Assembly (NCBI RefSeq): GCF_022347725.1
Contig: NZ_JAKRGB010000005.1
Coordinates: 62,001 to 126,000, forward strand
DNA from: Ruegeria sp. Ofav3-42
Lineage (GTDB): Bacteria; Pseudomonadota; Alphaproteobacteria; Rhodobacterales; Rhodobacteraceae
Direction: 5' to 3'
Length of the DNA: 64,000 nt
Both the position numbers and the translations under genes were made by a program. A model generated the notes under the pieces. The model ran no database searches. It was not told where the DNA came from and saw nothing but the letters and a program-made list of their open reading frames with translations. Shown here one piece after another: positions 41,189 to 61,785 of this stretch; position 1 is the first letter of the stretch, and each line of letters starts with the position of its first letter.

Positions 41189-41413
41189 CCAAATGCGACA
41201 GGATGCGAAGGCTAAGCTGCAAAAGTTCCCGACCCAATGCCCCAAGATTTTTTTCGTGCAGGCGTGAGAAATCCTCATGCTCTCTTTCCGACATAAAAGC
41301 GTCGCTAAGTGGCAAAACAGGGCTTCTGCGGTTGGTACTTTTTGAAAGTGCTGAACCGCGCAGCCGAGCGCATTTCGGCTACATCCAGAATCGGAAACGG
41401 GGGCAGACAGAAC

Positions 41414-42952: not shown

Positions 42953-42960
42953 GGGCTGAC

Positions 42961-42986
42961 CGGGGCAGGGTGGTTGCCGTGCCCCG
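42961..42986. terminator. Hairpin between convergent mttB-type and racemase-like genes
   Basis: CGGGGCA (42961-42967) pairs with TGCCCCG (42980-42986) in the 41-bp gap between two convergent genes. It may end transcription from either side; there is no T-run. Confidence 0.5.
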
Positions 42987-42993
42987 ATCCAAG

Positions 42994-44795: not shown

Positions 44796-46447
44796 GTCGC
44801 ACCTCCATAGGCTTTTGCGCCGTCTTCGCTGATCAATCCGCGCTTGAGATCCAAGGCAACTGCCTGTGCATCGCGTTCCGCCGGAAGGCCGAAGCCGCCG
44901 CCGCCGGGGGTTTCAAAGATCAGGTAATCGCCGTCCTCAACCCGCAATTCACCTTTGCCTGGAATGTCACTTTCGCTGTCACGGAATCGAATGCACCCGG
45001 GGGCGCCGGGTTGTCCGCCCCTGCGACCAAGCGCCGGAAACTTAAGGCGCTCGACTGAGAGGAACACAATGAAAGGCGCACCATTGGCCGAGGTCACCTC
45101 GATCCTCTGGCCCAGCCCGCCGCGATACTTGCCCGCGCCGCCGGAATCCGGACGCAACTCGCGCCGCCAGATGGTGACGGGCGCAACACTTTCGGTTATC
45201 TCGACCTGACTGCCGAATACGCCCGAGGGGTAGGCGGTGGCGGACAGCCCATCTGCATGAGGCCGTGCACCAGTGCCGCCGTTGTGGACCGGTTCGACCG
45301 CAAACTCGCGGCCACCATCGCGGGCCACTTCGGGGGCATGGCGCATCGGTAGATCGAACATGCACGATGCGCCCTCGGCCGGGACCGCATCGGGAAGCGC
45401 CTGATGCAAGCAGCCCAGCACCAGATCGGGCGTTACCTGTCCCAGCGTGTGCCGCATGGCAACCGGCACAGGGCGTTGCGCATTCAGGATGCAGCCCTTC
45501 GGTCCGTCCACGGTGAATGGCTCCAGCGATCCGGCGTTGTTTGGAATATCGGAGCCGACGATGCAGCGCAGCGCGAAAACGGTATAGGCGGTGGCATAGT
45601 TGAGCGGCACGTTGATGCCCTTGCGCGAACAGCCCGAAGTGCCTGTAAAATCCACATGCATGCCCGACTTGCTGACGGTCAGGGTTGCGTGCAGTTCCAG
45701 CTCATTCTCGTAACCATCCATCTTCAGCGCATTCTTGTAGACGCCTTCCGGAACCTCGGCGATCGCCTCCAGCGTACCTCGGCGCGAAGTGTCGATGATA
45801 TAGCTGCCCAGCCGGTCCAGATCGTCGATGCCGAATTCGTCCATCATATCGACTAACCGGTTCACCCCGGCCTCGCAGCAAGCGATCAGCGCGTAAATAT
45901 CACCTTCGTTTGCAATCGGCTCGCGGCTGTTGGCGCGGACAATGTCCAGCAGCAGGGCGTTCGGTACGCCCTCTACGACCAGTTTGCAGGGCGGAATCAG
46001 CAGACCTTCGTCATAGACGTCCGAGCCCTCTGGCCCCATACCGAGGCCCCCCAGATCGACCAGATGTGATGTGCAGGAGGTAAAGCCCACAACCTTACCG
46101 TTCTTGAATGCGGGCATCATCAGCAAAAAATCGTTCAGATGCCCGGAGGCCAGCCAGGGATCGTTGGTCATGTAGATGTCGCCGGGCTTCATGTTTTGCA
46201 CAGGGAAATGCGCGCGCAGATGCATCACCGCCTCGGCCATTGTGTTGATATGGCCCGGCGTGCCGGTGACGGCCTGTGCCAACATTCGCCCGGAGACGTC
46301 GAAAATCCCGGCAGAGATGTCTCCGCATTCTCGTACGATGGGTGAAAACGCCGCGCGGATCAGGGTCTGGCCTTGCTCTTCGACCACGGCCAGCAGGCGG
46401 TTCCACATCACTTGCAGGCGGGCGGGGGAAAGATCGGCAGTCATCAT
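44792..46447 (-). CDS. Hydantoinase B / oxoprolinase family subunit
   Basis: A 551-residue HyuB-type subunit. Together with HyuA it forms ATP-dependent hydantoinase, 5-oxoprolinase or acetone-carboxylase-like enzymes. Family motifs are clear: FSPIVRECGDISAGIFDVSGRMLAQAVTGTPGHINTM at the N-terminus, DIYMTNDPWLASGHLNDF, FTGTSGCSRKGINVPLNYATAYTVFALRCIVG, and the glycine-rich C-terminus YLIFETPGGGGFGLPAERD. Two tandem ATGs exist; the first overlaps the hyuA stop. N-methylhydantoin, hydantoin and 5-oxoproline are all possible substrates. Confidence 0.88.
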   Translation of the reverse strand: MMTADLSPARLQVMWNRLLAVVEEQGQTLIRAAFSPIVRECGDISAGIFDVSGRMLAQAVTGTPGHINTMAEAVMHLRAHFPVQNMKPGDIYMTNDPWLASGHLNDFLLMMPAFKNGKVVGFTSCTSHLVDLGGLGMGPEGSDVYDEGLLIPPCKLVVEGVPNALLLDIVRANSREPIANEGDIYALIACCEAGVNRLVDMMDEFGIDDLDRLGSYIIDTSRRGTLEAIAEVPEGVYKNALKMDGYENELELHATLTVSKSGMHVDFTGTSGCSRKGINVPLNYATAYTVFALRCIVGSDIPNNAGSLEPFTVDGPKGCILNAQRPVPVAMRHTLGQVTPDLVLGCLHQALPDAVPAEGASCMFDLPMRHAPEVARDGGREFAVEPVHNGGTGARPHADGLSATAYPSGVFGSQVEITESVAPVTIWRRELRPDSGGAGKYRGGLGQRIEVTSANGAPFIVFLSVERLKFPALGRRGGQPGAPGCIRFRDSESDIPGKGELRVEDGDYLIFETPGGGGFGLPAERDAQAVALDLKRGLISEDGAKAYGGAT

Positions 46448-48561
46448 GCGCCTCCTTTCTGGTCCTGGATCAGGACGAGGTTTCCAATGGCGTCCACTTG
46501 CGCCGAAAAGTCGGCCGAGACCAGCGTGGTGGTCTGCGGTTCGGTGATCAGCGCAGGGCCACAGACCCGATCGCCGGGGTTCAGGCTGTCGCGCGGCACA
46601 AAGCCAGCGAGTTTTGCTTTCCCGTCCACGTCGCAGGTGATGGGCCGCGTTTCAGCAGGCGTGATCGTGGTCAGAGATGGTGTTACGGGCAGGTCAGGTA
46701 TTTCGGAGTCCGGCGTGGCCACGCGCACGGCCCAGTTCAGGATCTCGATCTGCATTCCCGGCACCGGTCGCGAGAATTGCTTGCGGTATTCCGCCTCAAA
46801 AGCAGTAATCAGGGGATCGATGTCATCGGCTGTCAGGACGCGGTCGGGCAGCGCGATTTCGATCTCGTGGCCCTGACCGTTGTAGCGCATGAAGGCGGTG
46901 CGCTGCGTCTCGGTGGGGGCATCGCCCGCACCTTGAGCGACAACACCACTGGCCTCGGCAATCATGTCGGCAAACAGAGAGTTGATTCCGTCGAGGTCCA
47001 GTGTCTCCAGCAACGAGTAGCGCGAGCGCACGATCTCGAAGCTGACTGGTGCGAAGAGGAAACCGACTGCCGAGCCGACGCCCGGATTGGGTGGGATCAC
47101 AATTCGACTGACACCAGCGGATCGCGCCACGCGACTGGCGTGAAGCGGGCCGTTGCCGCCAAAGGCAATCATGGTGCGGGGACCAAGGTCTTTACCCGAC
47201 TCCACGGCGTGCATCCGGCCGGCACTGGCCATGCTCTCGTCGACGATCCTGCTGACCCCATCGGCTGATCCCGTCGCGTCGGTATCCAGCCGAGACCCAA
47301 TCACCCTGCTCAGCGCTTCTTTGGAGGCTTGAGGATCGATCTTGATATACCCTTCGGCAAATGTGTCCGGCACGATATAGCCTAAAGCGATGTCACTATC
47401 CGTCACCGTTGGTTCGGTGCCACCCCGTCCAAAGGCCACTGGGCCGGGTTCCGATCCGGCCGATTTCGGCCCAACGGTCAGCCGCCCCAGCCGGTCAACA
47501 CCGGCGATGGAGCCGCCGCCAGCGCCGATCTCGATCATCTCGATCACAGGGATGCGCACTGGCATACCCGAACCTTTGATAAACCGCGCTGCCCGCGCGA
47601 TTTCGAACTGGCGCGAGGTTTGAGGTCGTGCATTGTCTATCAGACAAAGCTTGGCAGTCGTGCCACCAACGTCAAAAGACAGAACCTCGTTGATCCCTGC
47701 ACGCGCCGCGATGCGCGCGGCAAGGATAGCTCCGCCCGCAGGCCCGCTTTCAACAAGACGGATAGGAAAGCGTGCGGCTGTCTGAACGGTGCACATCCCG
47801 CCGCCCGCAGTCATCATCAGGATCGGACAGGACACGCCCTCAGATTCAAACTGAGCTACAAACCGCGCCAGATAGCTTTCCATCAATGGCTGGATGTATG
47901 CGTTGGCGACTGTGGTGCAGAGCCGGTCGAATTCACGTGCCTCGGGGCTGACTTCGGACGAGATAGACACCGTGAGATCGGGTCGCTTTTCTGCAATGAT
48001 GTCACGCAACCTGCGTTCATGCGACGGGTTGGCATAGGCGTGCATGAAGCAGATTGCGACGGCCTCGGCGCCGCTGGCATCAAGATCGTCCAGCAGTGCG
48101 TCGACGGCACTGTCTTCCAAGTCAATCAACACGTTACCGTCGGCGGACATCCGTTCCCGGATCGTCAGCGCCCGTTCGCGGGGCACCAGCAGGTCGGGCT
48201 TTTCCAGGTTGATATCGTACTGTGAATAGCGCCGTTCGTAGGCGATCTCCAGAATGTCCCTGAACCCTTCGGTCGTGACCGTCGCTACAACGGCACCGCG
48301 CCGTTCAATCAGTGCATTGGTCGCCAGTGTCGTTCCATGGATGAAACCCGTTAACTCGCTTAGGGCACGGCCCGATTGTTCCATGACACGCATTGCACCT
48401 TCCATCGCGCCATCGGCCGGATTCTGGTGAGTTGTCAGTGTCTTGGTCGAAGCCAGTATGGTCTCGTCGCCCGAGACGAGTACCGTATCGGTAAAGGTGC
48501 CGCCAATGTCGATGGCCAGGCGCAACGATTGAGATGTCATGAAGTAATCCGAATTGTCCAT
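46444..48561 (-). CDS. Hydantoinase A / oxoprolinase family subunit
   Basis: A protein of up to 705 residues, the HyuA partner of the downstream HyuB. The N-terminus LRLAIDIGGTFTDTVLVSGDE is the actin-like ATPase phosphate-1 motif of the family. ETTAKLCLI-type ATP-binding follows in VLSFDVGGTTAKLCLIDNA, and IEIGAGGGSIAGVDRLGRLTVGPKSAGSEPGPVAFGRGG is the strongest hallmark. The frame starts at 48561, but the ATG at 48540 (MTSQSLRLAIDIGG) fits the family equally well, and neither has a strong ribosome site. It is first in a four-gene operon with ATGA overlaps. The 182 bp upstream hold no clear operator. Confidence 0.88.
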   Translation of the reverse strand: MDNSDYFMTSQSLRLAIDIGGTFTDTVLVSGDETILASTKTLTTHQNPADGAMEGAMRVMEQSGRALSELTGFIHGTTLATNALIERRGAVVATVTTEGFRDILEIAYERRYSQYDINLEKPDLLVPRERALTIRERMSADGNVLIDLEDSAVDALLDDLDASGAEAVAICFMHAYANPSHERRLRDIIAEKRPDLTVSISSEVSPEAREFDRLCTTVANAYIQPLMESYLARFVAQFESEGVSCPILMMTAGGGMCTVQTAARFPIRLVESGPAGGAILAARIAARAGINEVLSFDVGGTTAKLCLIDNARPQTSRQFEIARAARFIKGSGMPVRIPVIEMIEIGAGGGSIAGVDRLGRLTVGPKSAGSEPGPVAFGRGGTEPTVTDSDIALGYIVPDTFAEGYIKIDPQASKEALSRVIGSRLDTDATGSADGVSRIVDESMASAGRMHAVESGKDLGPRTMIAFGGNGPLHASRVARSAGVSRIVIPPNPGVGSAVGFLFAPVSFEIVRSRYSLLETLDLDGINSLFADMIAEASGVVAQGAGDAPTETQRTAFMRYNGQGHEIEIALPDRVLTADDIDPLITAFEAEYRKQFSRPVPGMQIEILNWAVRVATPDSEIPDLPVTPSLTTITPAETRPITCDVDGKAKLAGFVPRDSLNPGDRVCGPALITEPQTTTLVSADFSAQVDAIGNLVLIQDQKGGA

Positions 48562-48743: not shown

Positions 48744-49721
48744 TCAGGGTTTTGCCGCTTTGGCAGGATCGGACTCGGCCAGAACGCCGTCCATGATCAA
48801 GGCCTTCAGGCTGGTGCGGATTTCACTTTCGGGAAACTTGCCAATGCTCCAGTGCCTGAGGGACCAGACGTTGCACAGGAAATACAGATAGTTCGCCATC
48901 AATTCCGTATTCATGGGGCGGAACACCTTCTGCTCGACCCCTTGATCCAGAATGCCTTTCCAGCGTCCCATGAAGTCGCGTTCCATGTCGAATACACGCG
49001 CGCGGTTCTCGGCCGACATCGAGCGTGTTTCTGAGTAGACCAGATTTATATAGCGACGATTCTCGCCGATGTAGTCGATGTACCGGTCTACAGCCTTTTC
49101 AAGGTTCTGATCTGCGGGTCCGGTGAACAGCTCTCCGGTATCAAAGAAATCGATAATGTCCTGCATGCACATGGTGGTGATCAGATGCAGGATATCGTCC
49201 TTGTCCTTGATGTACTTGTACATGAGCGGAACCGACAGCCCGGATTCTTTGGCGATCTCGCGCATCGAGGCATTGCCGAACCCGTGCTTGGCGATCACCT
49301 TGCAAGCGCCTTCAAATATCTGCCGCCGCCGCTCCTCGGCTGTGTCGGACAGGGCGCGGGCGGGTTTTTCGGCCTGAGTGGTTTTCGGTGTTTCCATCAG
49401 ATCGGTGTCAACCGAGAACGTACAGGTCACTTCCATCAGAGTGGCGGACTCGCCCGGTTTGCGACCGGCCTGAACGATCGAAACACGGTAAGATGTCAGC
49501 GGCGAATCCTCTGGCGACATTCGCAAGGCCTGGGCTTCGATCTGGCCCTGTCCTGGTGTCGCCAGATTCGTGGCCGAGGTGTTGATCAAAGTCGGATGCA
49601 ATGTGTCACCCAGGCGCTTCAGTTCTTCCCGCGCAGCATCAATCGCCAGCGCTAGGCATACGCCATCCAGCTGTGATTTCTTAATGAATTCATCGACTTG
49701 CGCTGCTGAATATAAAAACAC
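48744..49721 (-). CDS. TetR-family regulator with an extra N-terminal domain
   Basis: A 325-residue regulator. A TetR-type helix-turn-helix lies at about 129-178 (ASMREIAKESGLSVPLMYKYIKDKDDIL), followed by a TetR ligand domain. Unlike normal TetR proteins of about 200 residues, it has some 105 extra residues in front. Their pattern (a helix at 8-38, then GQIEAQALRMSP, SYRVSIVQAGRK, ATLMEVTCTFSV) resembles a hotdog-fold thioesterase-like domain, which could sense an acyl-CoA. The GTG start at 49721 is supported by AAGGAGG about 8 bp upstream, so the extension is really translated. It is divergent from the monooxygenase/beta-oxidation operon, with a 24-bp palindrome in the shared promoter. Confidence 0.82.
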   Translation of the reverse strand: MFLYSAAQVDEFIKKSQLDGVCLALAIDAAREELKRLGDTLHPTLINTSATNLATPGQGQIEAQALRMSPEDSPLTSYRVSIVQAGRKPGESATLMEVTCTFSVDTDLMETPKTTQAEKPARALSDTAEERRRQIFEGACKVIAKHGFGNASMREIAKESGLSVPLMYKYIKDKDDILHLITTMCMQDIIDFFDTGELFTGPADQNLEKAVDRYIDYIGENRRYINLVYSETRSMSAENRARVFDMERDFMGRWKGILDQGVEQKVFRPMNTELMANYLYFLCNVWSLRHWSIGKFPESEIRTSLKALIMDGVLAESDPAKAAKP

Positions 49722-49860
49722 CCGGCCTGCCTCCTTAGGATCTTGCCCCGAGGCAACATGTTGAAATCCTTATGTCTTGTCCAGTTGGAAATCGTCGCAG
49801 TGCCCGGGCGACGCAGGGAAAGACATTTCGGGGCTTGACGAATTTGGCGGCCTCATGAGA

Positions 49861-49884
49861 GTGTTAGTGAACGTTCAATAACAC
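49861..49884. promoter_or_regulatory. 24-bp palindromic operator candidate upstream of the first luciferase-like gene
   Basis: The site is symmetrical over 24 bp with a single mismatched pair: GTGTTAGTGAAC on the left and GTTCAATAACAC on the right. It lies 17 bp before the monooxygenase start and 140 bp from the TetR gene start. The half-site TTAGTGAACG recurs upstream of the second monooxygenase gene, which points to one regulator for both. Confidence 0.7.
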
Positions 49885-49900: not shown

Positions 49901-51034
49901 ATGAAGTTCAAGATTCTCGCCATTCCATTCGCGCGCCAGCATGGCGAGGACACCCAGCTTGCCGGGCGTGATCCTACGCGGTTCAACAAGATGATGCACA
50001 CGCTGCGCGATCAGATGGTACTGGCCGAAGAGCTTGGGTATGACGGCTTCTGCCTGACAGAGCATCACATGCAGGTCGAAGGTGTGGAATGCACAACCAA
50101 CCCGCTGTTCTGGAACATGTACATCGCTCAGCACACCAAGAACTTCACAGTGGGTCAGCTGGGAATGAACCTCACGGCGATGAACCCGATCAAGACGGCT
50201 GAAGACATCGCCATGCTTGATCACATGACTGGCGGTCGCGTCTTCGCGGGTTTCTCACGCGGGAACACACCGCGTTGGACAGCAACCATGGGGCAGCATC
50301 TGGACATCACCTCGGCCGAGTCCGACAAGTCCGAGGCAGACCAGCGCAACCGACGCGCGTTGTATGAAAACTGGCGTCTGATCAAGTCGCTTTGGACTGA
50401 TGACCTGACCGAACATCAGGGCGAATTCTGGAACTTCCCGTCGAACGTCGAGTGGGAGTTTAATCCGACCAAGCTGTGGGGTGGTGACAACCCGGTCGAT
50501 GAAAACAAGATCCTGCGCAAATCGGGTATCGTTCCGCGCCCGCTGCAAAAACCGCACCCAAAGGTGTATGCGCCGTTCTCTTACTCGATGGAAACCGCCA
50601 AGTTTTGGTCCTCGGAAGGGGCCAAGATGGTATCCTTCGTGACCGCCGACAAAGAAGAGTTCATGCCGGTGATCCTGGAGAATTGCCTGCAGGCAGCGCA
50701 TGAAAACGGACTGACGCAGACCACAAACAACGACGTTCTGGCCTTGGGCGCGCATCTGATGATGGGCAAGACCCCCGCCAAGACCAGGCAGTATCGCGAG
50801 ATGTTCGACAACCTATGGTTCTCAGCCTACGACGCGCCGCCGTATCACGTGCCGCTGGGTCGCGTCTGGGATGGTTCGCGCCAGCAGGTTCTCGATCAGG
50901 TCGGCGAACTGGCCGAACGGTATCAGATAGAAGAATTCTTCGTGTGGCACCACGTGAACTATTTCGGCGACGAGATTGAGCAGGAGGCTCTGATCGAATT
51001 TGCCGAAGGCGTCATCAAACCTCTGAACGGTTAA
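49901..51034 (+). CDS. Luciferase-like FMN-dependent monooxygenase (first copy)
   Basis: A 377-residue TIM-barrel flavoprotein of the bacterial luciferase superfamily (LLM class). It should use reduced FMN and O2 to oxygenate an organic substrate. Visible family parts are EELGYDGFCLTEHHMQ, the FMN-site region IAMLDHMTGGRVFAGFSRGN, and PYHVPLGRVWDGSRQQVLDQVGEL. A close paralogue lies at the far end of the same gene set. The start has GGAGG 8 bp upstream. It is the first gene of the operon and is followed at 10 bp by ribB. The substrate is unknown; type II Baeyer-Villiger oxidation and alkanesulfonate-type chemistry are both known in this fold. Confidence 0.87.
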   Translation: MKFKILAIPFARQHGEDTQLAGRDPTRFNKMMHTLRDQMVLAEELGYDGFCLTEHHMQVEGVECTTNPLFWNMYIAQHTKNFTVGQLGMNLTAMNPIKTAEDIAMLDHMTGGRVFAGFSRGNTPRWTATMGQHLDITSAESDKSEADQRNRRALYENWRLIKSLWTDDLTEHQGEFWNFPSNVEWEFNPTKLWGGDNPVDENKILRKSGIVPRPLQKPHPKVYAPFSYSMETAKFWSSEGAKMVSFVTADKEEFMPVILENCLQAAHENGLTQTTNNDVLALGAHLMMGKTPAKTRQYREMFDNLWFSAYDAPPYHVPLGRVWDGSRQQVLDQVGELAERYQIEEFFVWHHVNYFGDEIEQEALIEFAEGVIKPLNG

Positions 51035-51044
51035 GGAAAAGATC

Positions 51045-51692
51045 ATGTTCGACCTGCACGAGGTTTATCGGTTGTCGCCCATCGAAGATGTCATTGCGGA
51101 CTGCGCGCAGGGCCGCATGGTCATTCTTGTTGATGACGAAAACCGCGAGAACGAGGGCGATTTGGTGATCCCTGCCGCCTGCACCGACGCGGCCGCCGTG
51201 AACTTCATGGCGCGCTTTGGTCGGGGCCTGATCTGCATGGCGATCCCGCCGGAAAGGGCTGAAAAGTTCAATCTGGGACCGATGGCAGCGTTGAACACCG
51301 ACCCCCATCATACGGCGTTCACCATTTCGGTGGACGCAAAAGAAGGCACCACCACTGGCATTTCCGCCAGCGACCGGGCGCGGACCATTGCGCTCTTGGC
51401 GTCAGATACTGGGTCTTCGGTTGACCTAGTCTCGCCCGGTCACCTTTTCCCTCTGGTGGCAAAACCTGACGGCGTATTGGAGCGGGAAGGCCACACCGAG
51501 GCCGCCGTCGATCTGGCCCGCCTGTCGGGGCAAGGCGATTCCGGAGTGATCTGCGAGATCATGAGGGATGACGGTGAAATGGCGCGCTTGCCGGACTTGC
51601 TGGAGTTTGGAGCCCGCCACGGCCTCAAGGTCGGTACGATCGAAGACCTCAAGCGGTACCGTCAAGCTTTGCTCACCGACAAGGCAGCCTGA
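51045..51692 (+). CDS. ribB: 3,4-Dihydroxy-2-butanone-4-phosphate synthase
   Basis: A 215-residue single-domain RibB that makes the four-carbon riboflavin precursor from ribulose 5-phosphate. The acidic metal/substrate loop VDDENRENEGDLVIPA lies at residues 25-40; GTTTGISASDRARTI and the C-terminal REGHTEAAVDLARL complete the active site. There is no GTP cyclohydrolase II domain. It is embedded 10 bp behind a flavin-dependent monooxygenase gene, not in a rib cluster, so it probably boosts FMN supply when the pathway is induced. Confidence 0.92.
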   Translation: MFDLHEVYRLSPIEDVIADCAQGRMVILVDDENRENEGDLVIPAACTDAAAVNFMARFGRGLICMAIPPERAEKFNLGPMAALNTDPHHTAFTISVDAKEGTTTGISASDRARTIALLASDTGSSVDLVSPGHLFPLVAKPDGVLEREGHTEAAVDLARLSGQGDSGVICEIMRDDGEMARLPDLLEFGARHGLKVGTIEDLKRYRQALLTDKAA

Positions 51693-52141: not shown

Positions 52142-53530
52142 ATGACGGCCCCTTATTCCCAACTATCGGCGCGTGCGATGGTGCAGGCCTTTGCCCGGCT
52201 GGAACTTTCCCCGGTCGAGGTCACGCAGGCCGCGCTGGATCGGATTGCTGCAGTCAATCCGCAGATCAACGCGATCTATCATCTGGATGCTGAACGCGCG
52301 CTGGATTCGGCACGCGCCTCAGAACAGCGCTGGCATGGCAATGAGGCGCTGGGACCGCTCGACGGTGTGCCGACGACGGTCAAGGATGCCTTGGATTGCA
52401 TTGGCATGCCAGCCTATCGCGGTTCCGCTGCAGGAGCGGTCGTGGTGAACACCACCGACCATCCGACGGTTGCCCGGATGCGCGAGGCCGGTTCCGTGAT
52501 CCTCGGCAAAAACACTATGTGCGACTATGGTATTCTGGCCGGCGGTGTCAGTTCCAAACATGGCGTCACGCGCAACCCCTGGGACTTGTCGCGTACGACC
52601 GGCGCGTCGTCCTCGGGCGCGTCAGCCAGCGTCGCCGCCGGGATCGAGCCGCTCTCGATTGGCACCGACATCGTGGGTTCGATCCGCCTGCCGGCGTCGT
52701 ATTGCGGGCTGGCCGGGCTGAAGCCGAGCCAAGGCCGGGTTCCCTACTATGTGTGTAACAGCCCGGCCATCACCGCAGGACCGCTGGCGCGTAGTTTTGG
52801 CGATGTCGCGTTGCACATGAATGTTCTGACCGGCGCGGATGGGCGTGACTTCACCGCCTTGGCCCGGGACGGGATGAATTATGTTTCGCGTTTGACCCGT
52901 GGCGACCGTGAAAACCTGTCTGTTCTTGTTGTTCCAGAGCTAGGCTTGGGCGAACCGGTGGCCGAAGATGTTCGTGCCGCGCTCGAGCGAACGGCGCAGG
53001 TTTTGCGGGATATGGGCGCCCAGATCACCTATCATGAAACCGCGCCGTTCAGCCGAACCGATTGGGAACCGACTGAGGCGTTCTATAAGGTCCGCACTCT
53101 GTCCGAACTGATGCGTCAGACCGAGGATGAGCAGGCAAAGACGCCTTACATACGCGATTGGAGCTATGACGCGCGGGCCCTGACGGCGGTTGAGCATCAA
53201 CGCAACTTCGATCACATGCAATCGTTGCGTGAACGTGCTTTGGCGCTAATTGACGGACACGACTTCGTCCTGTTGCCGTCGACACCGAACACCGCCTTTG
53301 CCGCAGAACTGCCGGGGTCTGACCCCAACAAGCCGTTCGAAAGCTGGGCCAACACCTTCCTGTTCAACCTGACAGAACAACCCGCATCCAGCATCCCCGT
53401 GGGACTAGATCGAAATGGGTTGCCGATCGGCATTCAGCTGGTCGGAAACCGGTTCGACGACTTGGGCGTTTTGCAGATGTCGTGGCGGATTGAACGGGAC
53501 ATCGGAGAGATGACGCCAGCGTCTCTGTAA
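52142..53530 (+). CDS. Amidase signature family hydrolase
   Basis: A 462-residue amidase-signature enzyme. The Ser-Ser-Lys triad is visible: the lysine in GVPTTVKDALDC, and the two serines in RTTGASSSGASASVAAGIEPLSIGTDIVGSIRLPAS. The usual GGSSGG is relaxed to GASSSGASA. A longer frame exists upstream, but ATG 52142 opens at MTAPYSQLSARAMVQAFARLELS, which fits the family. It could hydrolyse an amide or, less often, an ester intermediate of this pathway. It follows the SnoaL-like gene by 32 bp. Confidence 0.87.
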   Translation: MTAPYSQLSARAMVQAFARLELSPVEVTQAALDRIAAVNPQINAIYHLDAERALDSARASEQRWHGNEALGPLDGVPTTVKDALDCIGMPAYRGSAAGAVVVNTTDHPTVARMREAGSVILGKNTMCDYGILAGGVSSKHGVTRNPWDLSRTTGASSSGASASVAAGIEPLSIGTDIVGSIRLPASYCGLAGLKPSQGRVPYYVCNSPAITAGPLARSFGDVALHMNVLTGADGRDFTALARDGMNYVSRLTRGDRENLSVLVVPELGLGEPVAEDVRAALERTAQVLRDMGAQITYHETAPFSRTDWEPTEAFYKVRTLSELMRQTEDEQAKTPYIRDWSYDARALTAVEHQRNFDHMQSLRERALALIDGHDFVLLPSTPNTAFAAELPGSDPNKPFESWANTFLFNLTEQPASSIPVGLDRNGLPIGIQLVGNRFDDLGVLQMSWRIERDIGEMTPASL

Positions 53531-53569
53531 CCGAGGCAGATGCTGGCAACAAAAAATTTGGGAGGCAAA

Positions 53570-55219
53570 ATGAGCACCGACAAAGCAACAATCCCCGGCC
53601 AGATCATGACGATGCCGCTGACGGTGACCAGCATCTTCCGTCATGGCATGCGCGCACATCCCGAAGCGCAGATTGTCTGGCGCAACTCGGATATGACAAT
53701 CGACCGCTACAGCTTTGCGGATATGGGGCGCCGCACGCAGCAACTGGCGCACGCGCTGACTGAATTGGGCGTTGGTCCTGGGGACCGCGTCGCAACGCTG
53801 GCCTGGAATAACAACCGGCATCTTGAATTGTATTATGCGCTGGCCTGTATCGGAGCGATTTGCCACACGATCAACCCGCGCCTGCATCCCGACCAGATCG
53901 CCTTCATCATCAATGACGCCGAAGACACGCATATGTTCTTCGACACCACCTTCGCGCCCTTGATCGACGCCGTATCAGAACGCTGCCCAACTGTTCAGGG
54001 TTGGTACAGCCTGACAGGCCCGGAGCAAGTGCCGCAAATGAAGACGTCGGTCAGCGATTACGAGAGCCTGATCGCCGGCAAGCCGGACGTCTATGACTGG
54101 CCCGAACTCGATGAAAACGCCGCCATGGCGCTGTGTTATACCTCTGGCACCACCGGTAATCCCAAAGGTGTGCTGTATTCCCATCGCGGGACGGTGCTGC
54201 ACGCGATGGGCGTGTCTGGAGGCGAGTGGCTGGCTCTGACGGCGCGAGAGGCGGTTTTGCCAGTCGTGCCAATGTTCCACGCCTGCGCCTGGGGTCTGCC
54301 CTACGCCAGCATCATGAACGGAACCAAGCTGGTTTTGCCAGGACCGGGCATGGACCCCGCGCCGCTGCAAGAACTGATGGACGGCGAAGAGGTCACGATG
54401 ATCTCGGGTGTACCGACAGTCTGGCTGGGTTTGTACGAATACCTCGACCAGCGCGGCGAGAGACTGAAAACGGTCAAACGGGCGATGATGGGTGGTTCGG
54501 CGGCTCCGCTGTCGCTGATCGAAAAGATCGAGAAAGGTCACGAGACAGAGGTCGTTCACGGATGGGGCATGACCGAGCTGTCGCCGGTTGGCTCGCTGGC
54601 CATGCTCAAATGGGGCGAGGACAAGCTGCCCATTGACGAGCAGTTGCAGATCAAGACCAAACAGGGCCGCGCGCTTTATGGCGTTGAGATGCGCATCGTC
54701 AATGACGAAGGCGAACTGCTGCCCCACGATGGGATTGCTTCGGGCATGCTGCAGGTTCGTGGTCACTGGGTTGCCAGCAGTTATTGGGGCGGGGCAGGTG
54801 CCGATGCATTCACCGAGGACGGTTGGTTCTCGACTGGTGACGTCGCCGCAATCGACCCACAGGGATATCTGCGCCTGACCGACCGGACAAAGGATGTCAT
54901 CAAATCGGGTGGGGAATGGATTTCCTCAATTGATCTGGAAAGCATCGCCATGAGCCATCCTGATGTTCTGGAGGCTGCCTGTATCGCCGCCAAGCACCGC
55001 AAATGGGACGAACGCCCGCTGATCGTAGCGGTCAAACGCGAGGGCTCGGAGATCAGTCGCGAAGACATTCTGGCGCTTTATGACGGCCAAATTGCCAAGT
55101 GGTGGACCCCTGATGACGTGGTGTTCCAGGCCGAGCTTCCGCACACCGCCACCGGAAAGGTCTCCAAGCTGCATCTGCGTGATCAATACGCCGACTACAA
55201 GCTGCCCACCGACAATTAA
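53570..55219 (+). CDS. AMP-forming acyl-CoA ligase (DmdB/AlkK-like)
   Basis: A 549-residue ANL-superfamily ligase that activates a carboxylic acid to its CoA thioester. The P-loop [21 protein letters not shown] lies near residue 190; [24 protein letters not shown] at the N-terminus, [13 protein letters not shown] and [21 protein letters not shown] are all present. The N-terminal style ([22 protein letters not shown]) is that of medium-chain ligases including DmdB. ATG 53570 has GGAGG 7 bp upstream. The acid it activates is unknown. It is directly upstream of thiolase and dehydrogenase genes, so it starts a beta-oxidation branch. Confidence 0.9.
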
Positions 55220-55244: not shown

Positions 55245-56426
55245 ATGCGTTCTGCCGTTATCGTCTCGACCGCCCGTACTGCAATTGGCAAAGCCTTTCG
55301 CGGAGCTCTCAATGACACTCACCCCGCCGTTTATGGCGGCCATGCCGTCGCCGAAGCGGTTAAACGCTCCGGGGTCGACCCGTCTGAGATTGAGGATGTG
55401 ATCATTGGCAATGCCGTGCCCGAAGGCGCGAATGGTGGCAATCTGGGCCGTCAGGTTGCGATGCGGGCCGGCCTGCCGGTGACGGCATCGGGTCAGACGG
55501 TCAACCGTTTCTGCTCGTCGGGCCTTGAGGCACTGACCCGGGCCTGTTCGCGGGTCATGGTGGATGGCTGTGACGTGGTTGTCGGTGGCGGAGCTGAAAG
55601 CATCTCTCTGGTGATGGGCCGTGAAAACACCCACCGGTTGGCCGAAGACTGGATCAAGGAAAACGTGCGGGGCTTCTACCATCCAATGATCCGCACTGCG
55701 GATACTGTGGCAGATCGCTACGGCATCAGCCGCGAGGCGCAGGACGAGTTTGCCCTGCAGTCGCAGCAGCGCACAGCCGCTGCGCAGGCAGCAGGCAAGT
55801 TCGATGACGAGATCGTACCGATCACTGTCACCAAAGCGAATAAGAACAAGGAAACTGGCGAGGTCACTTACGAAGAGGTCACGCTGACCCAGGATGAATG
55901 CAACCGCCCCTCGACCACGCTGGAAAGCCTTGCCGGACTGGCCCCGGTGATGGGAGAGGACAAGTGGACCACCGCCGGCAACGCCTCGCAACTGTCCGAC
56001 GGCGGATCGGCGCAGGTCGTGATGGAGGAGAAGCTGGCCGAGCAGCGCGGGTTAGAACCGCTGGGCCGCTACATGGGTTACGTGGTTGCGGGCTGCGAAC
56101 CTGATGAAATGGGTATCGGTCCCGTCTTTGCGGTCCCGAAATTGCTGGAGCGCAACGGCCTCAAGATGGACGATATTGGCCTGTGGGAACTGAACGAGGC
56201 GTTCGCGTCGCAAGCCCTGTATTGCCGCGACAAGCTGGGTATCCCGAATGAGATCCTGAACGTGGACGGCGGCGCAATTTCGGTGGGCCACCCTTATGGC
56301 ATGTCGGGCACGCGCATGGTCGGCCACGCACTGATCGAGGGCAAGAAACGCGGCGCGAAATACATTGTCGCCACCATGTGTATTGGCGGTGGCATGGGTG
56401 CGGCTGGCCTGTTCGAGGTTCTGTAA
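55245..56426 (+). CDS. Acetyl-CoA acyltransferase (thiolase)
   Basis: A 393-residue degradative-type thiolase. The nucleophilic Cys90 is in [13 protein letters not shown], the catalytic His349 in [14 protein letters not shown], and Cys379 in [12 protein letters not shown]. It performs the final thiolytic cleavage in beta-oxidation. It starts 25 bp after the ligase gene and ends immediately before the multifunctional dehydrogenase gene (stop and start adjacent), as in fadA-fadB-type pairs. The frame open upstream overlaps the ligase and is not used. Confidence 0.93.
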
Positions 56427-58724
56427 ATGAGCGCGATCAACAAAGTCGCCGTTATCGGTTCGGGTGTGATGGGGGCGGGGATCGCCGCGCACTTCGCCAA
56501 CGCAGGCGCCGAAGTGGTCCTGCTGGATATCGTGCCCAAAGATGCGGAAGATCGCTCGATGCTGGCCAAGAGTGCCATCGCGCGCATGACCAGAGGCCGC
56601 GCGCCACAGTTGGCGGATCCGGCCTACGCGGCGCGGCTAACGGCGGGCAATCTCGAGGATGATCTGGAACAGCTGCGCGACTGTGATTGGGTTGTTGAGG
56701 TCGTCCTGGAAGACCTCGCCATCAAACACGCGCTGTATGCGAAAATCGCGCCCTACCTGCGGGACGATGCGTTGCTGAGCTCGAATACTTCGACCATTCC
56801 ACTGGCCGATCTGGTCAGCCAGATGGGCGATGACCTGCGCAAGCGCTTTGTGATCGTGCATTTTTTCAACCCGCCGCGTTACATGCGCCTGATCGAACTG
56901 GTGACCGGACCCGATACCGATCCGGCGGCTGCGGAACGTGCCCGTGCCTTCAGCGACAAGTGCTTGGGCAAGACTGTCGTGCCCTGCAATGACCGCCCGG
57001 GCTTTATTGCCAACCGTCTGGGTGGGTTGTGGATGAACGCTGCTGCCCGCGAGGCAGTGACTCGTGGTATCACCGTGGAAGAGGCTGACACGGTCCTGGC
57101 TCGTCCCTTCGGCGTGCCCGGAACGGGCGTTTTTGCACTGATGGATCTGATCGGCATCGATCTGATGGGCAAATCGCGCCTGTCCATGCGCAACCTGCTT
57201 GAATCCGAAGACCCGCAGCAACTCCATACTAAGGGTCTGGAGCTGTTCGATCAGATGGCTGCCAAGGGGTTAGCTGGTCGCAAGGCGGGCGCAGGGTTCT
57301 ATCGTCGATCAAAGGATGCAAACGGAAAAACCGTGGCTGAAGTAGTCGATCTGGCGACGCTTGACTATCGTACGCAGGCCAAGGGGCCGGACCTGTCCAA
57401 GAGTTTCGGTGTCGACTTCATTGATCAAGCCGGTGATCGGTTGGCTGATTATGCTTGGGCCGTCATGGGGCCAGCGCTGTCTTATGCGGCCTATTGCGTG
57501 CCCGAAATCACCGCCAACCCGGCCGATATCGATGCCGCGATGGAGCTTGGGTACAACTGGCGCATGGGTCCTTTCAAGCTGATCGACAAGATTGGCGCAG
57601 ACAAGATTGTCGCCAGGCTGAAGTCTGAAGGTCTGGATGTGCCGCCGTTGCTGGAGCTTGCTGCGGAACGCGGCGGGATTTACTCGGGAATGGGCCGTGA
57701 CCGTAAGGTACTGCTGCCTTCGGGCGAGCAGGCAGAAGTGCCGCGCGGGCCGGGGATGATCTTTGCCTCAGACCTGACGGATGCCCCGGAGTTTCAGACC
57801 GAAGCGGTGGCGCTGCACGATATGGGGGATGGCGTTGCTTTGCTGACGATCACCGCGCCCAATGCGGCTTTGGACGATCAGGTGATGACTGGTGTCAGCG
57901 AGGCATTGGACGTTGTGGGCCGCGACTTCAAGGCGATGGTCATCGGGTCGGACGGCAACCACTTTTCGGTGGGTGCGAACCTGAAAAAGGCGTTGGACCG
58001 TGCCGATGCCGGAGAGTTGGACCTGGTTGAAGGGCAGTTGGCAATCGGTCAGGCCACGATGCGCAAGATCAAGTATGCGCCGTTTCCTGTGGTCTCGGCC
58101 GCATGTGGGCTGGCTTTGGGCGGTGGCTGTGAGATATTGATGCATTCGGATCGGGTTATGGCCGCGCTCGAAAGTAACATCGGATTGGTTGAGGCCAACG
58201 TCGGTCTGCTGCCGGCTTGGGGTGGCACAACAGCGCTGTTGTTGCGCAAAACGGCAGAACTGGGTGACCCGGTCAAAGGGGCCGAGGCTGCATTCGATGT
58301 GATCTCGGTGGCGCTGATGACCGGCTCCGCTCCGATGGCGCAGCATGCGGGCTATCTGAAGGCCACCGACGGAGTGGTGATGAACCGCGACCGCCTGCTG
58401 GCTGAGGCAAAGGCGGCGGCGCTGGCGCTGGCCGATGGGTATCAGCCTGCGTCCATGGCCGAGATCACGCTCGATGCCGCCGCAATCAATGCCGCGCTGG
58501 AGCCGAAGTTGGCCGCCCTAGCTGATGCCATGCCCGACGCACCCTACACGGTCGAAATAGCCCGCGAGACGGCGCATGTGCTGGCGGGCGGGGACGGTGG
58601 TACTTTGGACGAAGAGGCGCTGCACAAACTGGAAGCCGACGGCATGATGCGCCTGATCCGTCAGGACAAGACCATCGAGCGGATGCGTCACACCATGACC
58701 ACCGGTAAGCCGCTGAAAAACTGA
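56427..58724 (+). CDS. 3-Hydroxyacyl-CoA dehydrogenase / enoyl-CoA hydratase fusion (FadN-like)
   Basis: A 765-residue bifunctional beta-oxidation enzyme. The order is dehydrogenase first: NAD motif VIGSGVMGAGIAAHFANAGAEVVLLD at about 7-32, then VEVVLEDLAIKHALYA, STIPLADLVSQM and VIVHFFNPPRYMRLIELV. A crotonase domain follows from about 470 (MVIGSDGNHFSVGANLKKAL, ACGLALGGGCEILMHSD, LVEANVGLLPAWGGT). This is the reverse of FadB and matches the FadN-type arrangement. The start lies directly after the thiolase stop. It catalyses hydration and oxidation of an enoyl-CoA made by the acyl-CoA dehydrogenase downstream. Confidence 0.92.
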   Translation: MSAINKVAVIGSGVMGAGIAAHFANAGAEVVLLDIVPKDAEDRSMLAKSAIARMTRGRAPQLADPAYAARLTAGNLEDDLEQLRDCDWVVEVVLEDLAIKHALYAKIAPYLRDDALLSSNTSTIPLADLVSQMGDDLRKRFVIVHFFNPPRYMRLIELVTGPDTDPAAAERARAFSDKCLGKTVVPCNDRPGFIANRLGGLWMNAAAREAVTRGITVEEADTVLARPFGVPGTGVFALMDLIGIDLMGKSRLSMRNLLESEDPQQLHTKGLELFDQMAAKGLAGRKAGAGFYRRSKDANGKTVAEVVDLATLDYRTQAKGPDLSKSFGVDFIDQAGDRLADYAWAVMGPALSYAAYCVPEITANPADIDAAMELGYNWRMGPFKLIDKIGADKIVARLKSEGLDVPPLLELAAERGGIYSGMGRDRKVLLPSGEQAEVPRGPGMIFASDLTDAPEFQTEAVALHDMGDGVALLTITAPNAALDDQVMTGVSEALDVVGRDFKAMVIGSDGNHFSVGANLKKALDRADAGELDLVEGQLAIGQATMRKIKYAPFPVVSAACGLALGGGCEILMHSDRVMAALESNIGLVEANVGLLPAWGGTTALLLRKTAELGDPVKGAEAAFDVISVALMTGSAPMAQHAGYLKATDGVVMNRDRLLAEAKAAALALADGYQPASMAEITLDAAAINAALEPKLAALADAMPDAPYTVEIARETAHVLAGGDGGTLDEEALHKLEADGMMRLIRQDKTIERMRHTMTTGKPLKN

Positions 58725-58736
58725 GGGATTATAGGT

Positions 58737-60506
58737 ATGGACTATCAACTCCCCCAGCGGGACATTACCTTTCTGTTGGACGAGGTGCTGGACCTCGACA
58801 AGACGCTGGCATTGCCGGGGTACGAACACTGCGACAAAGACACGTTCTTTGCTGTCGTTGACGCGATTAACGGTTTCGTGCGCGACAACCTTGCCACTTG
58901 TAACGAGGCGGGGGACAGTCCCGGCGCGCGGCTTGAAGACGGTCAGGTCTATGCCGCCCCGGGATTTGGCGACGCCTACAAGGTGTTCTGCGAAGACGGT
59001 TGGAACGCGCTTGCATTAGAGGAGGAGTTTGGCGGCCAACAACTGCCCTTCGTCCTACATGCCGCCTTGCGCGAGGGGATGGCCGGAACCAATCTGGCAT
59101 TCGCTCTGATACACGAGTTGAATTTCGGTGTGGTCGAGGCCCTGATGGCCTACGGCTCGGAAGAACAGAAGGCGGTCTATTGCCCGCAGCTAACCAGCGG
59201 CAACTGGGCCGGAACCATGAACCTGACCGAGCCGCATTGCGGCACAGATCTGGGGCTGATCCGTACCAAGGCGCTGCGGAATGATGACGGATCTTATGCC
59301 ATCACCGGCAACAAGATTTTCATCACATGGGGCGACCACGATATGTCGGAAAACGTCGCCCACCTGATCCTGGCCCGGGTCGAAGGTGCACAGCCTGGCC
59401 CGCGTGGACTGTCTTTGTTTCTGGCTCCGAAATACATGTTGGACGTAGACAACAACACGACGGATCAACGCAATACGATCACCATTGCCGGGATTGAGAA
59501 TAAGATGGGCATCCACGGCTCGCCCACTTGCGCCATTTCCTTTGAAGATACCAAGGCTTGGATCGTCGGCGAAGAAGGCAAAGGTCTGGCCGCAATGTTC
59601 GTAATGATGAACGCCGCACGCCTGTCAGTTGGGCTGCAGGGGTTGGGCGTGGCCGAGGCTGCTGTGCAGACGGCAACAGCCTACGCCCACGAACGCCTCC
59701 AGGGCCGCGCGGATGGGGAGCCTTTGAATCCAAACGGTCCCGCCGATCCGCTGATCGCCCATGCGGATGTACGCCGTCGCCTGCTGACCGCACAAGGTGA
59801 GATGGATGCAGCCCGAGCATTGGCCTATTTTGGCGCAAGTCTGCTGGATGCGGCACATCGTGCCGAGACCCCGGAACTGCGCAAAGAAGCTGATACGCGG
59901 CTGTCGCTGCTGACCCCGGTGATCAAATCCTATCTGTCTGACATGGGCTCGCGCATGGCGAACGAGGCTGTGCAGATGCATGGAGGTCACGGGTTCATCA
60001 AAGATTATGGCGTTGAGCAATTGGTGCGCGACGTTCGGATCACCGAGATCTACGAGGGTACAAATGCGGTTCAGGCCCGGGATCTGGTCATGCGTAAAGT
60101 GCGCGGAGACAATGGTGCCGTCATCAAGGGGCTGATCGCCGACATGCTGGACGAGGCGGGCAAACTGGGCCCAGACCTCTCTGATGTCGAGACCCACTTG
60201 CGTGACGCGGCAACACGGCTTGGCCGGTCGACCGACTGGGTATTGGGGGCGGCGCAGGGCGATGTGCTGTCGGGGGCATGCGACTATTTGGAAATTGTGG
60301 CGCTGAGCCTTTCCGCCTGGATGTCCGCGCGGATCGCCCGCGTGGCCACGGTAGCGTCCGGAGACCAGTCGCCTGATTATTATGCGGATCGGGCGGATGC
60401 CGCGCGCGCTTTCATGGCCCGCGCGCTGCCTCGTGCGGTAAGCCACGAATTGATCATGCAAGCCGGTGAACCTGGCATTGTATGTCGGGCTGATCGCTGT
60501 CTGTAA
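58737..60506 (+). CDS. Acyl-CoA dehydrogenase of the long, DmdC-like type
   Basis: A 589-residue FAD-dependent acyl-CoA dehydrogenase, longer than the usual 380 residues because of a C-terminal extension, as in DmdC (3-methylmercaptopropionyl-CoA dehydrogenase) and its relatives. Family signatures are GNWAGTMNLTEPHCGTDLGLIRTKA, KIFITWGDHDMSENVAHLILARV, and AVQMHGGHGFIKDYGVEQLVRDVRITEIYEGTNAVQARDL with the probable catalytic Glu of ITEIYEGTN. The N-terminal MDYQLPQRDITFLLDEVLDL is also typical. It ends the operon; a clear terminator follows. Whether it acts on a sulfur-containing acyl-CoA cannot be told from sequence. Confidence 0.9.
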   Translation: MDYQLPQRDITFLLDEVLDLDKTLALPGYEHCDKDTFFAVVDAINGFVRDNLATCNEAGDSPGARLEDGQVYAAPGFGDAYKVFCEDGWNALALEEEFGGQQLPFVLHAALREGMAGTNLAFALIHELNFGVVEALMAYGSEEQKAVYCPQLTSGNWAGTMNLTEPHCGTDLGLIRTKALRNDDGSYAITGNKIFITWGDHDMSENVAHLILARVEGAQPGPRGLSLFLAPKYMLDVDNNTTDQRNTITIAGIENKMGIHGSPTCAISFEDTKAWIVGEEGKGLAAMFVMMNAARLSVGLQGLGVAEAAVQTATAYAHERLQGRADGEPLNPNGPADPLIAHADVRRRLLTAQGEMDAARALAYFGASLLDAAHRAETPELRKEADTRLSLLTPVIKSYLSDMGSRMANEAVQMHGGHGFIKDYGVEQLVRDVRITEIYEGTNAVQARDLVMRKVRGDNGAVIKGLIADMLDEAGKLGPDLSDVETHLRDAATRLGRSTDWVLGAAQGDVLSGACDYLEIVALSLSAWMSARIARVATVASGDQSPDYYADRADAARAFMARALPRAVSHELIMQAGEPGIVCRADRCL

Positions 60507-60648: not shown

Positions 60649-61785
60649 ATGAAAACCCATATCCTTGTTCAACCCTATATGCGTTCAAAAGGCGAAGATG
60701 TCGTGCTGCCGGGGTCGGACCCGGATCGGTACGAAACGCTGTTGGAGCGGACAACCGAGCAGATGAAATTCGCCGATGAAAATGGTTATGCCGGCTTTTG
60801 CATGACCGAGCATCACTTTCAGGTCGAAGGGATCGAGACCACAACCAACCCGCTGTTGTGGAACATGCACATCGCGGCGAATACCAAGAACCTGATGGTA
60901 GGGCAGGTGGGTATGGCACTAACGGCCCACCATCCAATGCGTTTGGCCGAGGATATGGCGATGATCGACCACATGTCTGGTGGGCGACTGTTCTGCGGCT
61001 TTGTCCGGGGCAACACGCCGCGCTGGCTGAATACGCTGGCACAGCATCTCGACATCACCACGACGCAATCCGACCGGTCCAAGGAAGATGCCCGGAACCG
61101 GCGATTGATGGAGGAAAGCTGGGCCGTGGTGAAAAAAGCCTGGACCAACGAAACGTTCAGCCATCATGGCGAATTCTGGAACATCCCCGCCGACAATATC
61201 ACATGGCCCTTCCCCCCGACCGCAAAATATGGCGGCGAGGGCGCGGTCGACGACAACGGTACCTTGCGCAAGATGGGCATCGTACCGCGCCCGCGCAAAA
61301 GGACCGATGGGCGTGATTTCCCGCCGCTCTATGTGCCCTTTTCGTGGTCAATGGAGACGGCGAAATTCTGGGCCAAGGAAGGTGCCAAGCTGGTCTCGTT
61401 CGTGTCCAAGGACGAGTTCATGGACATGACCATGCCGATCTATCTGAAAGAGGCACATCATCACGGCCATACCGATCTGACAGTAGGGAACACTCTGGTT
61501 TTGGGCGGCCACCTGACAATCGGTTCAACCGAAGCGCAGGCGGAACAGCATTATCGTGACTTTGAAGAGCTGTTCAATTTTGCCTACAACGCGCCACCCT
61601 ATCACGTACCGATGGGCCGCGTCTGGAAAGGCACTGTCAATCAGGTGATCGATCAGGTGGGCGCGCTGAAAGAGAAATACTGCACCGAAGAGTTCGTGGT
61701 CTGGCACCACGTCGGGTATTTCACTCAGGAAGAAGAGCTTGAGATGCTCGACAACTACGCCAAGGTCATCAAGGCGTTTTCCTGA
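60649..61785 (+). CDS. Luciferase-like FMN-dependent monooxygenase (second copy)
   Basis: A 378-residue luciferase-superfamily oxygenase and clear paralogue of the enzyme at 49901. The two share long stretches, for example TEHHxQVEGxExTTNPLxWNM, IDHMSGGRLFCGFVRGNTPRW, FSWSMETAKFWAKEGAKLVSFV and the C-terminal PPYHVPMGRVWKG. This copy has its own promoter region with a similar palindrome, and terminators on both sides. The pair may form a heterodimer, as in bacterial luciferase, or act on successive or related substrates. Only a weak AAGG site precedes the ATG. Confidence 0.87.
   Translation: MKTHILVQPYMRSKGEDVVLPGSDPDRYETLLERTTEQMKFADENGYAGFCMTEHHFQVEGIETTTNPLLWNMHIAANTKNLMVGQVGMALTAHHPMRLAEDMAMIDHMSGGRLFCGFVRGNTPRWLNTLAQHLDITTTQSDRSKEDARNRRLMEESWAVVKKAWTNETFSHHGEFWNIPADNITWPFPPTAKYGGEGAVDDNGTLRKMGIVPRPRKRTDGRDFPPLYVPFSWSMETAKFWAKEGAKLVSFVSKDEFMDMTMPIYLKEAHHHGHTDLTVGNTLVLGGHLTIGSTEAQAEQHYRDFEELFNFAYNAPPYHVPMGRVWKGTVNQVIDQVGALKEKYCTEEFVVWHHVGYFTQEEELEMLDNYAKVIKAFS

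Follow-up and report, generated by a model that had tools for sequence, protein, structure and literature searches.

FapR and SpxR/YtoI are transcription factors in which a hotdog domain has been described. In FapR, a repressor of acyl-CoA metabolism in Firmicutes, a linker helix connects an N-terminal DeoR-like helix-turn-helix (HTH) with a non-enzymatic hotdog at the C-terminus, which binds malonyl-CoA (PMC516016, PMC3536700). SpxR and YtoI are composed of HTH, DRTGG, CBS and HotDog domains, the hotdog being one among several predicted ligand-binding domains (PMC9888711). Two further groups are relevant to the protein considered here, namely the TetR-fold regulators FadR of B. subtilis and PfmR of T. 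thermophilus, and PaaI, YciA and other 4HBT thioesterases. Among the open-licence PMC papers listed, no protein combining a hotdog with a TetR regulator was found.

The present locus lies in a 64,000-nt stretch of the Ruegeria sp. Ofav3-42 genome (C52:62001-126000; hereafter the window, with its own numbering) and encodes a TetR-family regulator preceded by an extra N-terminal domain (N-domain) with a predicted hotdog-like fold (Table 1). It resembles FapR as a probably non-enzymatic hotdog fused to the HTH of a putative repressor of acyl-CoA metabolism but, compared with FapR, the domain order is reversed, the HTH is of the TetR and not the DeoR-like type, and the N-domain, which has no strand 1, stands before a complete TetR regulator with a ligand domain of its own. 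With SpxR and YtoI it shares the presence of a hotdog in a transcription factor, but those proteins have CBS and DRTGG domains and appear to have no TetR core. FadR and PfmR have the same TetR fold, aligned at residues 132-268 and 132-312, respectively, whereas their matched chains of 190-194 residues carry no extra N-terminal domain. PaaI, YciA and other 4HBT thioesterases are like the N-domain in predicted fold, from which the latter departs by having no strand 1, no sequence match and, by position mapping, probably no catalytic acid. In 4ICH, a Saccharomonospora viridis TetR protein with a 311-residue chain, the TetR part aligns at 104-272, so that about 100 residues precede it, as in the Ruegeria regulator; its N-terminal part gave no sequence match to the N-domain, and the 4ICH structure compared holds 193 residues only. 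As far as we have seen, the regulator would work like FapR but is not FapR, being a TetR-family member with an added domain.

Table 1. Features of the locus and of the surrounding gene cluster. Positions are those of the window unless a contig is given; residue numbers refer to the regulator. The SDR, aldehyde dehydrogenase and small TetR genes of the cluster are named by reading only.
Feature	Position	Strand	Basis or remark
TetR-family regulator with N-terminal hotdog-like domain	48744..49721	-	325 aa, GTG start; domain fold predicted
Extra N-terminal domain, residues 1-107	49401..49721	-	predicted hotdog-like fold
Long 'hotdog' helix, residues 6-36, holding invariant Ala26	49614..49706	-	separate N-domain model
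Four strands, residues 44-103	49413..49592	-	separate N-domain model
Linker, residues 105-125, variable, low confidence	49347..49409	-	alignment, AlphaFold2, dN/dS
TetR_N helix-turn-helix, residues 135-179	49185..49319	-	Pfam
TetR_C_24 ligand-binding/dimer domain, residues 201-286	48864..49121	-	Pfam
Shine-Dalgarno AGGAGG upstream of regulator GTG	49730..49735	-	
TTGACG, probable -35 box of divergent operon	49835..49840	+	
Site 1, candidate operator TTAGTGAACGTTCAATAA, upstream of first monooxygenase	49864..49881	.	intergenic conservation, genome motif search
Luciferase-like monooxygenase, first gene of divergent operon	49901..51034	+	
RibB-type 3,4-dihydroxy-2-butanone-4-phosphate synthase	51045..51692	+	
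Small protein, putative lumazine-binding domain PF12893	51732..52109	+	
Amidase	52142..53530	+	start chosen by us
Acyl-CoA ligase	53540..55219	+	nearest 3-(methylthio)propionyl-CoA ligase model, below its cut-off
Acetyl-CoA acyltransferase (thiolase)	55245..56426	+	start chosen by us
3-Hydroxyacyl-CoA dehydrogenase/crotonase, FadB/FadJ-like	56427..58724	+	
Acyl-CoA dehydrogenase-like protein	58737..60506	+	
Site 2, second candidate operator of the window TTAGTGAACGATAACTAA	60617..60634	.	ends 14 nt before second monooxygenase ATG
Second luciferase-like monooxygenase	60649..61785	+	55% identical to first
Site 3, between AMP-binding ligase and SDR-like gene			
Site 4, between aldehyde-dehydrogenase-like gene and RutF-like flavin reductase	C52:155657-155674 (L072:11657)		
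Site 5, between Rieske oxygenase and small TetR-like gene			
Site 6, 33 nt upstream of GPH-like transporter			

A preliminary description of this DNA, made from its letters, had claimed a protein of about 325 residues with some 105 of them ahead of the HTH, the extension being real and served by a good ribosome site, and the data bear this out. Pfam recognises TetR_N (41.8 bits, cut-off 24) and TetR_C_24 (51.3 bits, cut-off 26.4), and no family above cut-off in residues 1-107; since TetR_N begins only at residue 135, the HTH is preceded by a structured part of about 105 residues and by a linker. AGGAGG is located 8 nt upstream of the GTG codon. When the window protein is aligned with 11 full-length relatives, the start column is common to all 12 sequences (GTG in eight, ATG in four), and within the 45 codons upstream of the HTH there is no internal start codon common to all 12. 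Met96 is common to the eight Ruegeria-type sequences and has no Shine-Dalgarno-like sequence upstream. In these eight sequences (28 pairs, the distant loci L016-L019 being left out), the median dN/dS is lowest in the TetR part (0.017), higher over residues 1-104 (0.081) and highest in the linker (0.424), and the changes in the extension, summed over the 28 pairs, number 393, 171 and 1283 at codon positions 1, 2 and 3, with a clear dominance of the third position. The identity of the N-domain between the Ruegeria-type and Tropicibacter-type groups is 33-36%; nevertheless, the helix residues L25, A26, A29, A30, R31, E33 and L34 are invariant across both. A later start, including one near residue 110, is ruled out by the shared start column, the purifying selection and the lack of a common internal start. 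The extension is thus confirmed as a real protein domain under purifying selection, constrained, yet drifting faster than the TetR core, and could for that reason count for less than the core.

In the comparison of the complete model with known structures, the matches listed were all TetR chains, and the N-domain was therefore modelled and searched alone. In both the full-length and the separate AlphaFold2 models it consists of a helix (residues 6-36) and four strands (44-52, 61-67, 75-85 and 92-103), which in the full-length model are followed by a low-confidence linker and then by nine helices. Confidence in the full-length model is low (pLDDT <50) at residues 1-4, 106-125 and 318-325, and residues 1-106 modelled alone, on a shallow alignment of 12 sequences, reach a pLDDT of 88.5 and a pTM of 0.78. 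Disorder of residues 1-110, which the preliminary description had named, together with a start near residue 110, as speaking against its proposal, is accordingly ruled out, the only low values in that range being those at 1-4 and from 106 on. The thioesterase-like fold proposed for this region also emerges from the model, as a predicted structure and not as a sequence relationship. Thus, a VIA comparison of the N-domain gave hotdog proteins for all 50 among the matches listed, with Z scores of 9.3-10.8 that exceed the best Z of 7-8 stated by VIA as typical for models without a clear match; examples are 4xy5 (Z 10.5, 2.0 A, 87 aligned), 1tbu (Z 10.5, 1.6 A, 79 aligned) and FapR itself (4a12_B; Z 9.5, 2.3 A, 84 aligned). 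A Foldseek search of the PDB gave hotdog thioesterases for 47 of the 50 matches listed and chains of one SecB-like chaperone for the other three, none of them at E <= 0.001 (best E 1.7e-3). Where the title of a PDB entry names no fold, we take its hotdog identity as known. The similarity to hotdog thioesterases spans residues ~11-106 and comprises, in the prediction, the defining elements of the fold, an antiparallel sheet curled around a long central helix. In hotdog enzymes one strand precedes the long helix. The N-domain has no such strand 1, all four of its strands coming after the helix, and for this reason we term it hotdog-like and do not file it as 4HBT.

Sequence comparison recovers none of this relationship. 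Across the 12 members, the best hotdog family in Pfam is 4HBT_3, found in one of the 12 at E 0.22 and thus weaker than chance-looking matches to Maf_N (0.03), DLEU7 (0.10) and MlaC (0.11); hhalign of the N-domain against four hotdogs of the host genome, a thin four-sequence profile, gave a probability of 0.13%; and a sequence search of the PDB with the N-domain found no hotdog. It is therefore the predicted structure that carries the hotdog assignment, and it supports residues 1-106 being a hotdog-like domain.

Whether such a domain would still catalyse can be approached through the mutants named in the titles of the matched structures, namely Asp52Ala (4xy5), Asp44Ala (3bjk), Asp43Ala (5egk) and E64A (4qda), whose mutated residues we take to be the thioesterase catalytic acids; other mutants among the VIA matches (Thr68Ala, Q32A, N33D, and FlK T42S and F36A) were left out. 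Transferred without gaps through the VIA aligned ranges, and hence possibly off by a residue or two, the four acids fall on residues 26, 26, 26 and 27, which in the regulator family are the invariant Ala and an Ile or Leu. Residue 28, two positions from the mapped one, is Asp in seven, Glu in four and Gln in one of the 12 sequences, which leaves some doubt that catalysis has been lost. The alternative of an active thioesterase attached to the repressor, which would reset the switch by hydrolysing the inducer, would agree with this acidic residue in 11 of the 12 members near the presumed catalytic position, and also with the fact that the fold matches listed are nearly all thioesterases. In thioester enzymology, a free helix end near the active position polarises the thioester. 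The helix of the N-domain begins at residue 6, which would leave no such end nearby and, together with the Gln28 of one member, the invariant Ala26 at the aligned catalytic position and the missing strand, makes an active enzyme most improbable. Judging from the predicted fold, the N-domain is probably a non-catalytic hotdog.

The remainder of the protein has the attributes of the TetR family, with an HTH followed by an all-helical C-terminal domain (nine helices after residue 125 in the full model). All 50 among the VIA matches listed for the full model are TetR chains (Z 16.8-19.8), some by title and others by what we take their identity to be. The best NCBIfam model is FadR NF053878 (E 1e-15), whose 58.1 bits are below the cut-off of 200, so that the regulator is not filed as FadR, and the best solved sequence relatives in the PDB are PfmR, with the top score, a TetR protein presumably from Vibrio, and FadR. 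Arg233, invariant in 12/12 sequences, aligns with Arg109 of B. subtilis FadR, and PfmR has Lys and not Arg in this column. Arg109 is described as a key residue in the conformational change of FadR (PMC13176608). The preliminary description saw in the extension a possible sensor of an acyl-CoA from the neighbouring operon. Given its likeness to FadR and the retained Arg109 position, however, it is plausible that the core responds to acyl-CoA-type ligands and may itself be the sensor, instead of or alongside the hotdog, which would then be an addition to an acyl-CoA-responding core.

These same observations lend themselves to a simpler role for the extension, in which the hotdog-like domain only dimerises or spaces, binds no ligand, and leaves acyl-CoA sensing to the FadR-like C-terminal pocket. 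Hotdog folds are usually dimers. Such a role would also be in keeping with the FadR-like core and its Arg109 position, as well as with the stronger constraint on the core (dN/dS of 0.017 vs 0.081); however, the run of invariant helix residues from L25 to L34, maintained in spite of the low identity between groups, is perhaps more than a spacer requires, and we consider this role rather unlikely.

In search of the same fusion in other genomes, as the preliminary description had suggested, we found it only in Ruegeria and its near relatives among the matches examined. In a set with one genome per species, relatives occur at 12 loci, comprising seven Ruegeria copies that are 81-92% identical to the window protein, four distant copies from Tropicibacter, Falsiruegeria and a Rhodobacteraceae isolate (52-54%), and one truncated copy; a Ruegeria atlantica contig (L012) is among the carriers. 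Within the genus, the fusion is full-length in 8 of 54 genomes, with one further fragment, and six additional genomes match over the TetR part only (E <= 1e-15). Three of 198 sampled family genomes carry it; the N-domain alone matches four of these 198 at E <= 0.01, of which three are real and one (G085) is in an unrelated frame. Among 390 genomes of the order, six match at E <= 1e-25, all belonging to the genus and none outside it. The N-domain profile matches 10 of 385 class genomes at E <= 0.1, the host included, with no other fusion, as the other nine are, by reading, unrelated frames with no TetR part. The full profile matches 20 of 398 phylum genomes; apart from the host copy, the matches read were the four in frames of >300 aa, of which G1159 has two and G1053 and G1138 one apiece, and by reading none of them shows a hotdog-like domain. 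In 72,556 plasmid records there are 26 matches, and no other fusion among those examined; among the 25 listed, only the one from Bosea (H1) reaches residues 1-92, in a frame with stops. The Pseudonocardia match (H2) has stop codons further upstream and a short tail, that of Rhodococcus (H7) has a lysine-rich tail, and that of Azoarcus (H17) was examined through its annotation.

The N-domain might also be what is left of an old fusion, now decaying and without function, and it is true that it evolves faster than the core, is short of one strand and has no recognised sequence relatives. Against this, its dN/dS is still about 0.08, third-position changes dominate, and the domain is kept in all 11 full-length relatives, so that we regard a remnant as highly unlikely.

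The regulator is divergent from an operon opening with a luciferase-like monooxygenase. At E <= 1e-120, the first monooxygenase is present in 3 of 295 family genomes, namely the host, G038 and G073 (the last two at 92% identity), and these three are also the carriers of the regulator in the family sample. Inside the operon, a RibB-type gene and a putative lumazine-binding gene occur together, as though flavin for the operon were supplied from within it. At a distance of 44 kb from the first monooxygenase, a RutF-like flavin reductase has the same palindrome as the one upstream of the operon (see below), which suggests that the flavin reductase partner of a two-component system is co-regulated at a distance. 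The cluster consequently has the look of a pathway in which a two-component flavin monooxygenase delivers its products to beta-oxidation. Past the 3' end of the regulator, at window 41309-48561, are a caprolactamase/hydantoinase-like pair, an aminotransferase, an arylmalonate-decarboxylase-like gene and an MttB-like methyltransferase, possibly a separate pathway.

The space between the regulator and the operon contains a 14-nt stretch, TGAACGTTCACTAA on the reverse strand, which is invariant in 12/12 intergenic regions amid flanking bases that vary, and which in the window is part of a 24-bp palindrome that is perfect except for a single pair. On the side of the monooxygenase, TTGACG is found upstream of the core of the palindrome, at 33 nt in eight loci and at 32 nt in four, and no good -10 box for the operon was seen in the promoter region. 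If TTGACG is the -35 box, the palindrome lies over the transcription start region, as expected for a repressor. With the 18-bp pattern TTAGTGAACGTTCACTAA and up to 3 mismatches, the host genome contains 7 sites, compared with 0 for the reversed pattern, and 6 of the 7 are within one 65-kb stretch, C52:111864-177401. Over the 138 kb examined, these 6 sites (<=3 mismatches) compare with 0.02 on average when 60 sequences of the same length (138 kb) were randomised at a similar dinucleotide make-up; as the pattern was derived from one of the six, the independent sites number five. The mechanical ORF call of the left-hand gene, with a start that we judge to be too long, overlaps the palindrome at sites 4 and 5, both of which are upstream of the right-hand gene.

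The number of palindromes was compared between genomes with and without the regulator. In the nine further genomes found to carry it in full there are 4-9 sites each, 47 in total (reversed control 6), 44 of them on the contig of the regulator, whereas 11 genomes, taken from the 46 of the genus that have no full copy, contain 0-1 each, 4 in total (reversed control 7). The strict form of the motif appears in 2 of 198 family genomes, both regulator carriers, and the third carrier of that sample (G073) has a two-mismatch site. In the four Tropicibacter-type loci (L016-L019), two palindromes are seen at about 5795 and 5895, 95-100 bp apart, the weaker one by the regulator start. A similar site (TGAGTGAACGTTCAAGAA or TTTGTGAACGTTCAAGAA) occurs singly in four genus genomes devoid of the regulator (G305, G401, G043 and G257), where a different protein may be its owner. 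The truncated regulator of R. atlantica CECT 4292 adjoins an ORF that, by reading, is transposase-like (L020:4567-5547 and 6001-6294), and no monooxygenase operon lies within the 12-kb locus. Genome G528, which likewise has only a regulator fragment, and zero sites, is no clean test of ownership, because in view of the operon missing beside the transposase-like ORF the absence of sites proves nothing.

It must be taken into account that the palindrome sites travel with the cluster, which holds two further TetR-like genes (C52:164450 and C52:170841). The first of these, TetR2, is unlikely to be the owner, since five genomes that retain 4-6 sites have, by our own assignment, either no TetR2 or a broken one. 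The second, TetR3, has an ortholog, assigned by score and position, in 7 of the 8 genus genomes with the full hotdog-TetR, host included, and a similar TetR adjoins the hotdog-TetR in two Tropicibacter/Falsiruegeria loci; were the palindrome to belong to TetR3, the hotdog-TetR would have other targets. However, the palindrome is present in the divergent promoter region of the hotdog-TetR in 12/12 loci, a second copy with 3-4 mismatches is near its start in 4/4 Tropicibacter-type loci, and no site with <=3 mismatches is found upstream of TetR3 in the host genome, all of which leaves TetR3 as a candidate, but an improbable, owner. We infer that the palindrome belongs to the hotdog-TetR, which probably controls the 65-kb cluster of oxygenase and acyl-CoA breakdown genes.

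The reading that we favour, with a probability of about 0.5, is that of a TetR repressor with a FadR-like core that has gained a non-catalytic N-terminal hotdog and controls a flavin-monooxygenase/acyl-CoA regulon, the hotdog being accessory. In such a model, a dimer of the regulator would bind the palindrome that follows the probable -35 box of the monooxygenase promoter at a distance of some 30 nt, as well as the five further copies in the cluster, and would block transcription until an acyl-CoA of the pathway, or its acyl group, binds. The hotdog, held on a flexible linker, may serve as a second ligand-binding and/or dimerising module, in principle comparable to the effector domain of FapR.

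If this is true, the hotdog-TetR would add a non-enzymatic hotdog regulator to those represented by FapR and SpxR/YtoI, and would constitute a natural two-sensor repressor. Rather tentatively, it could represent a second evolutionary route, independent of FapR and SpxR, in which a pseudo-thioesterase placed before an acyl-CoA TetR protein gave a two-input regulator of a whole cluster, responding to two acyl-CoA signals or to one at two sites. As far as we have seen, the hotdog-TetR architecture is new, and the conserved 18-bp palindrome goes beyond the preliminary description. The predicted operator and regulon make this reading directly testable, with one DNA sequence, one protein and few candidate acyl-CoAs. 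They also offer a handle on the catabolic cluster of Ruegeria, where one switch seems to govern a flavin-synthesis gene and a flavin reductase along with the two luciferase-like monooxygenases.
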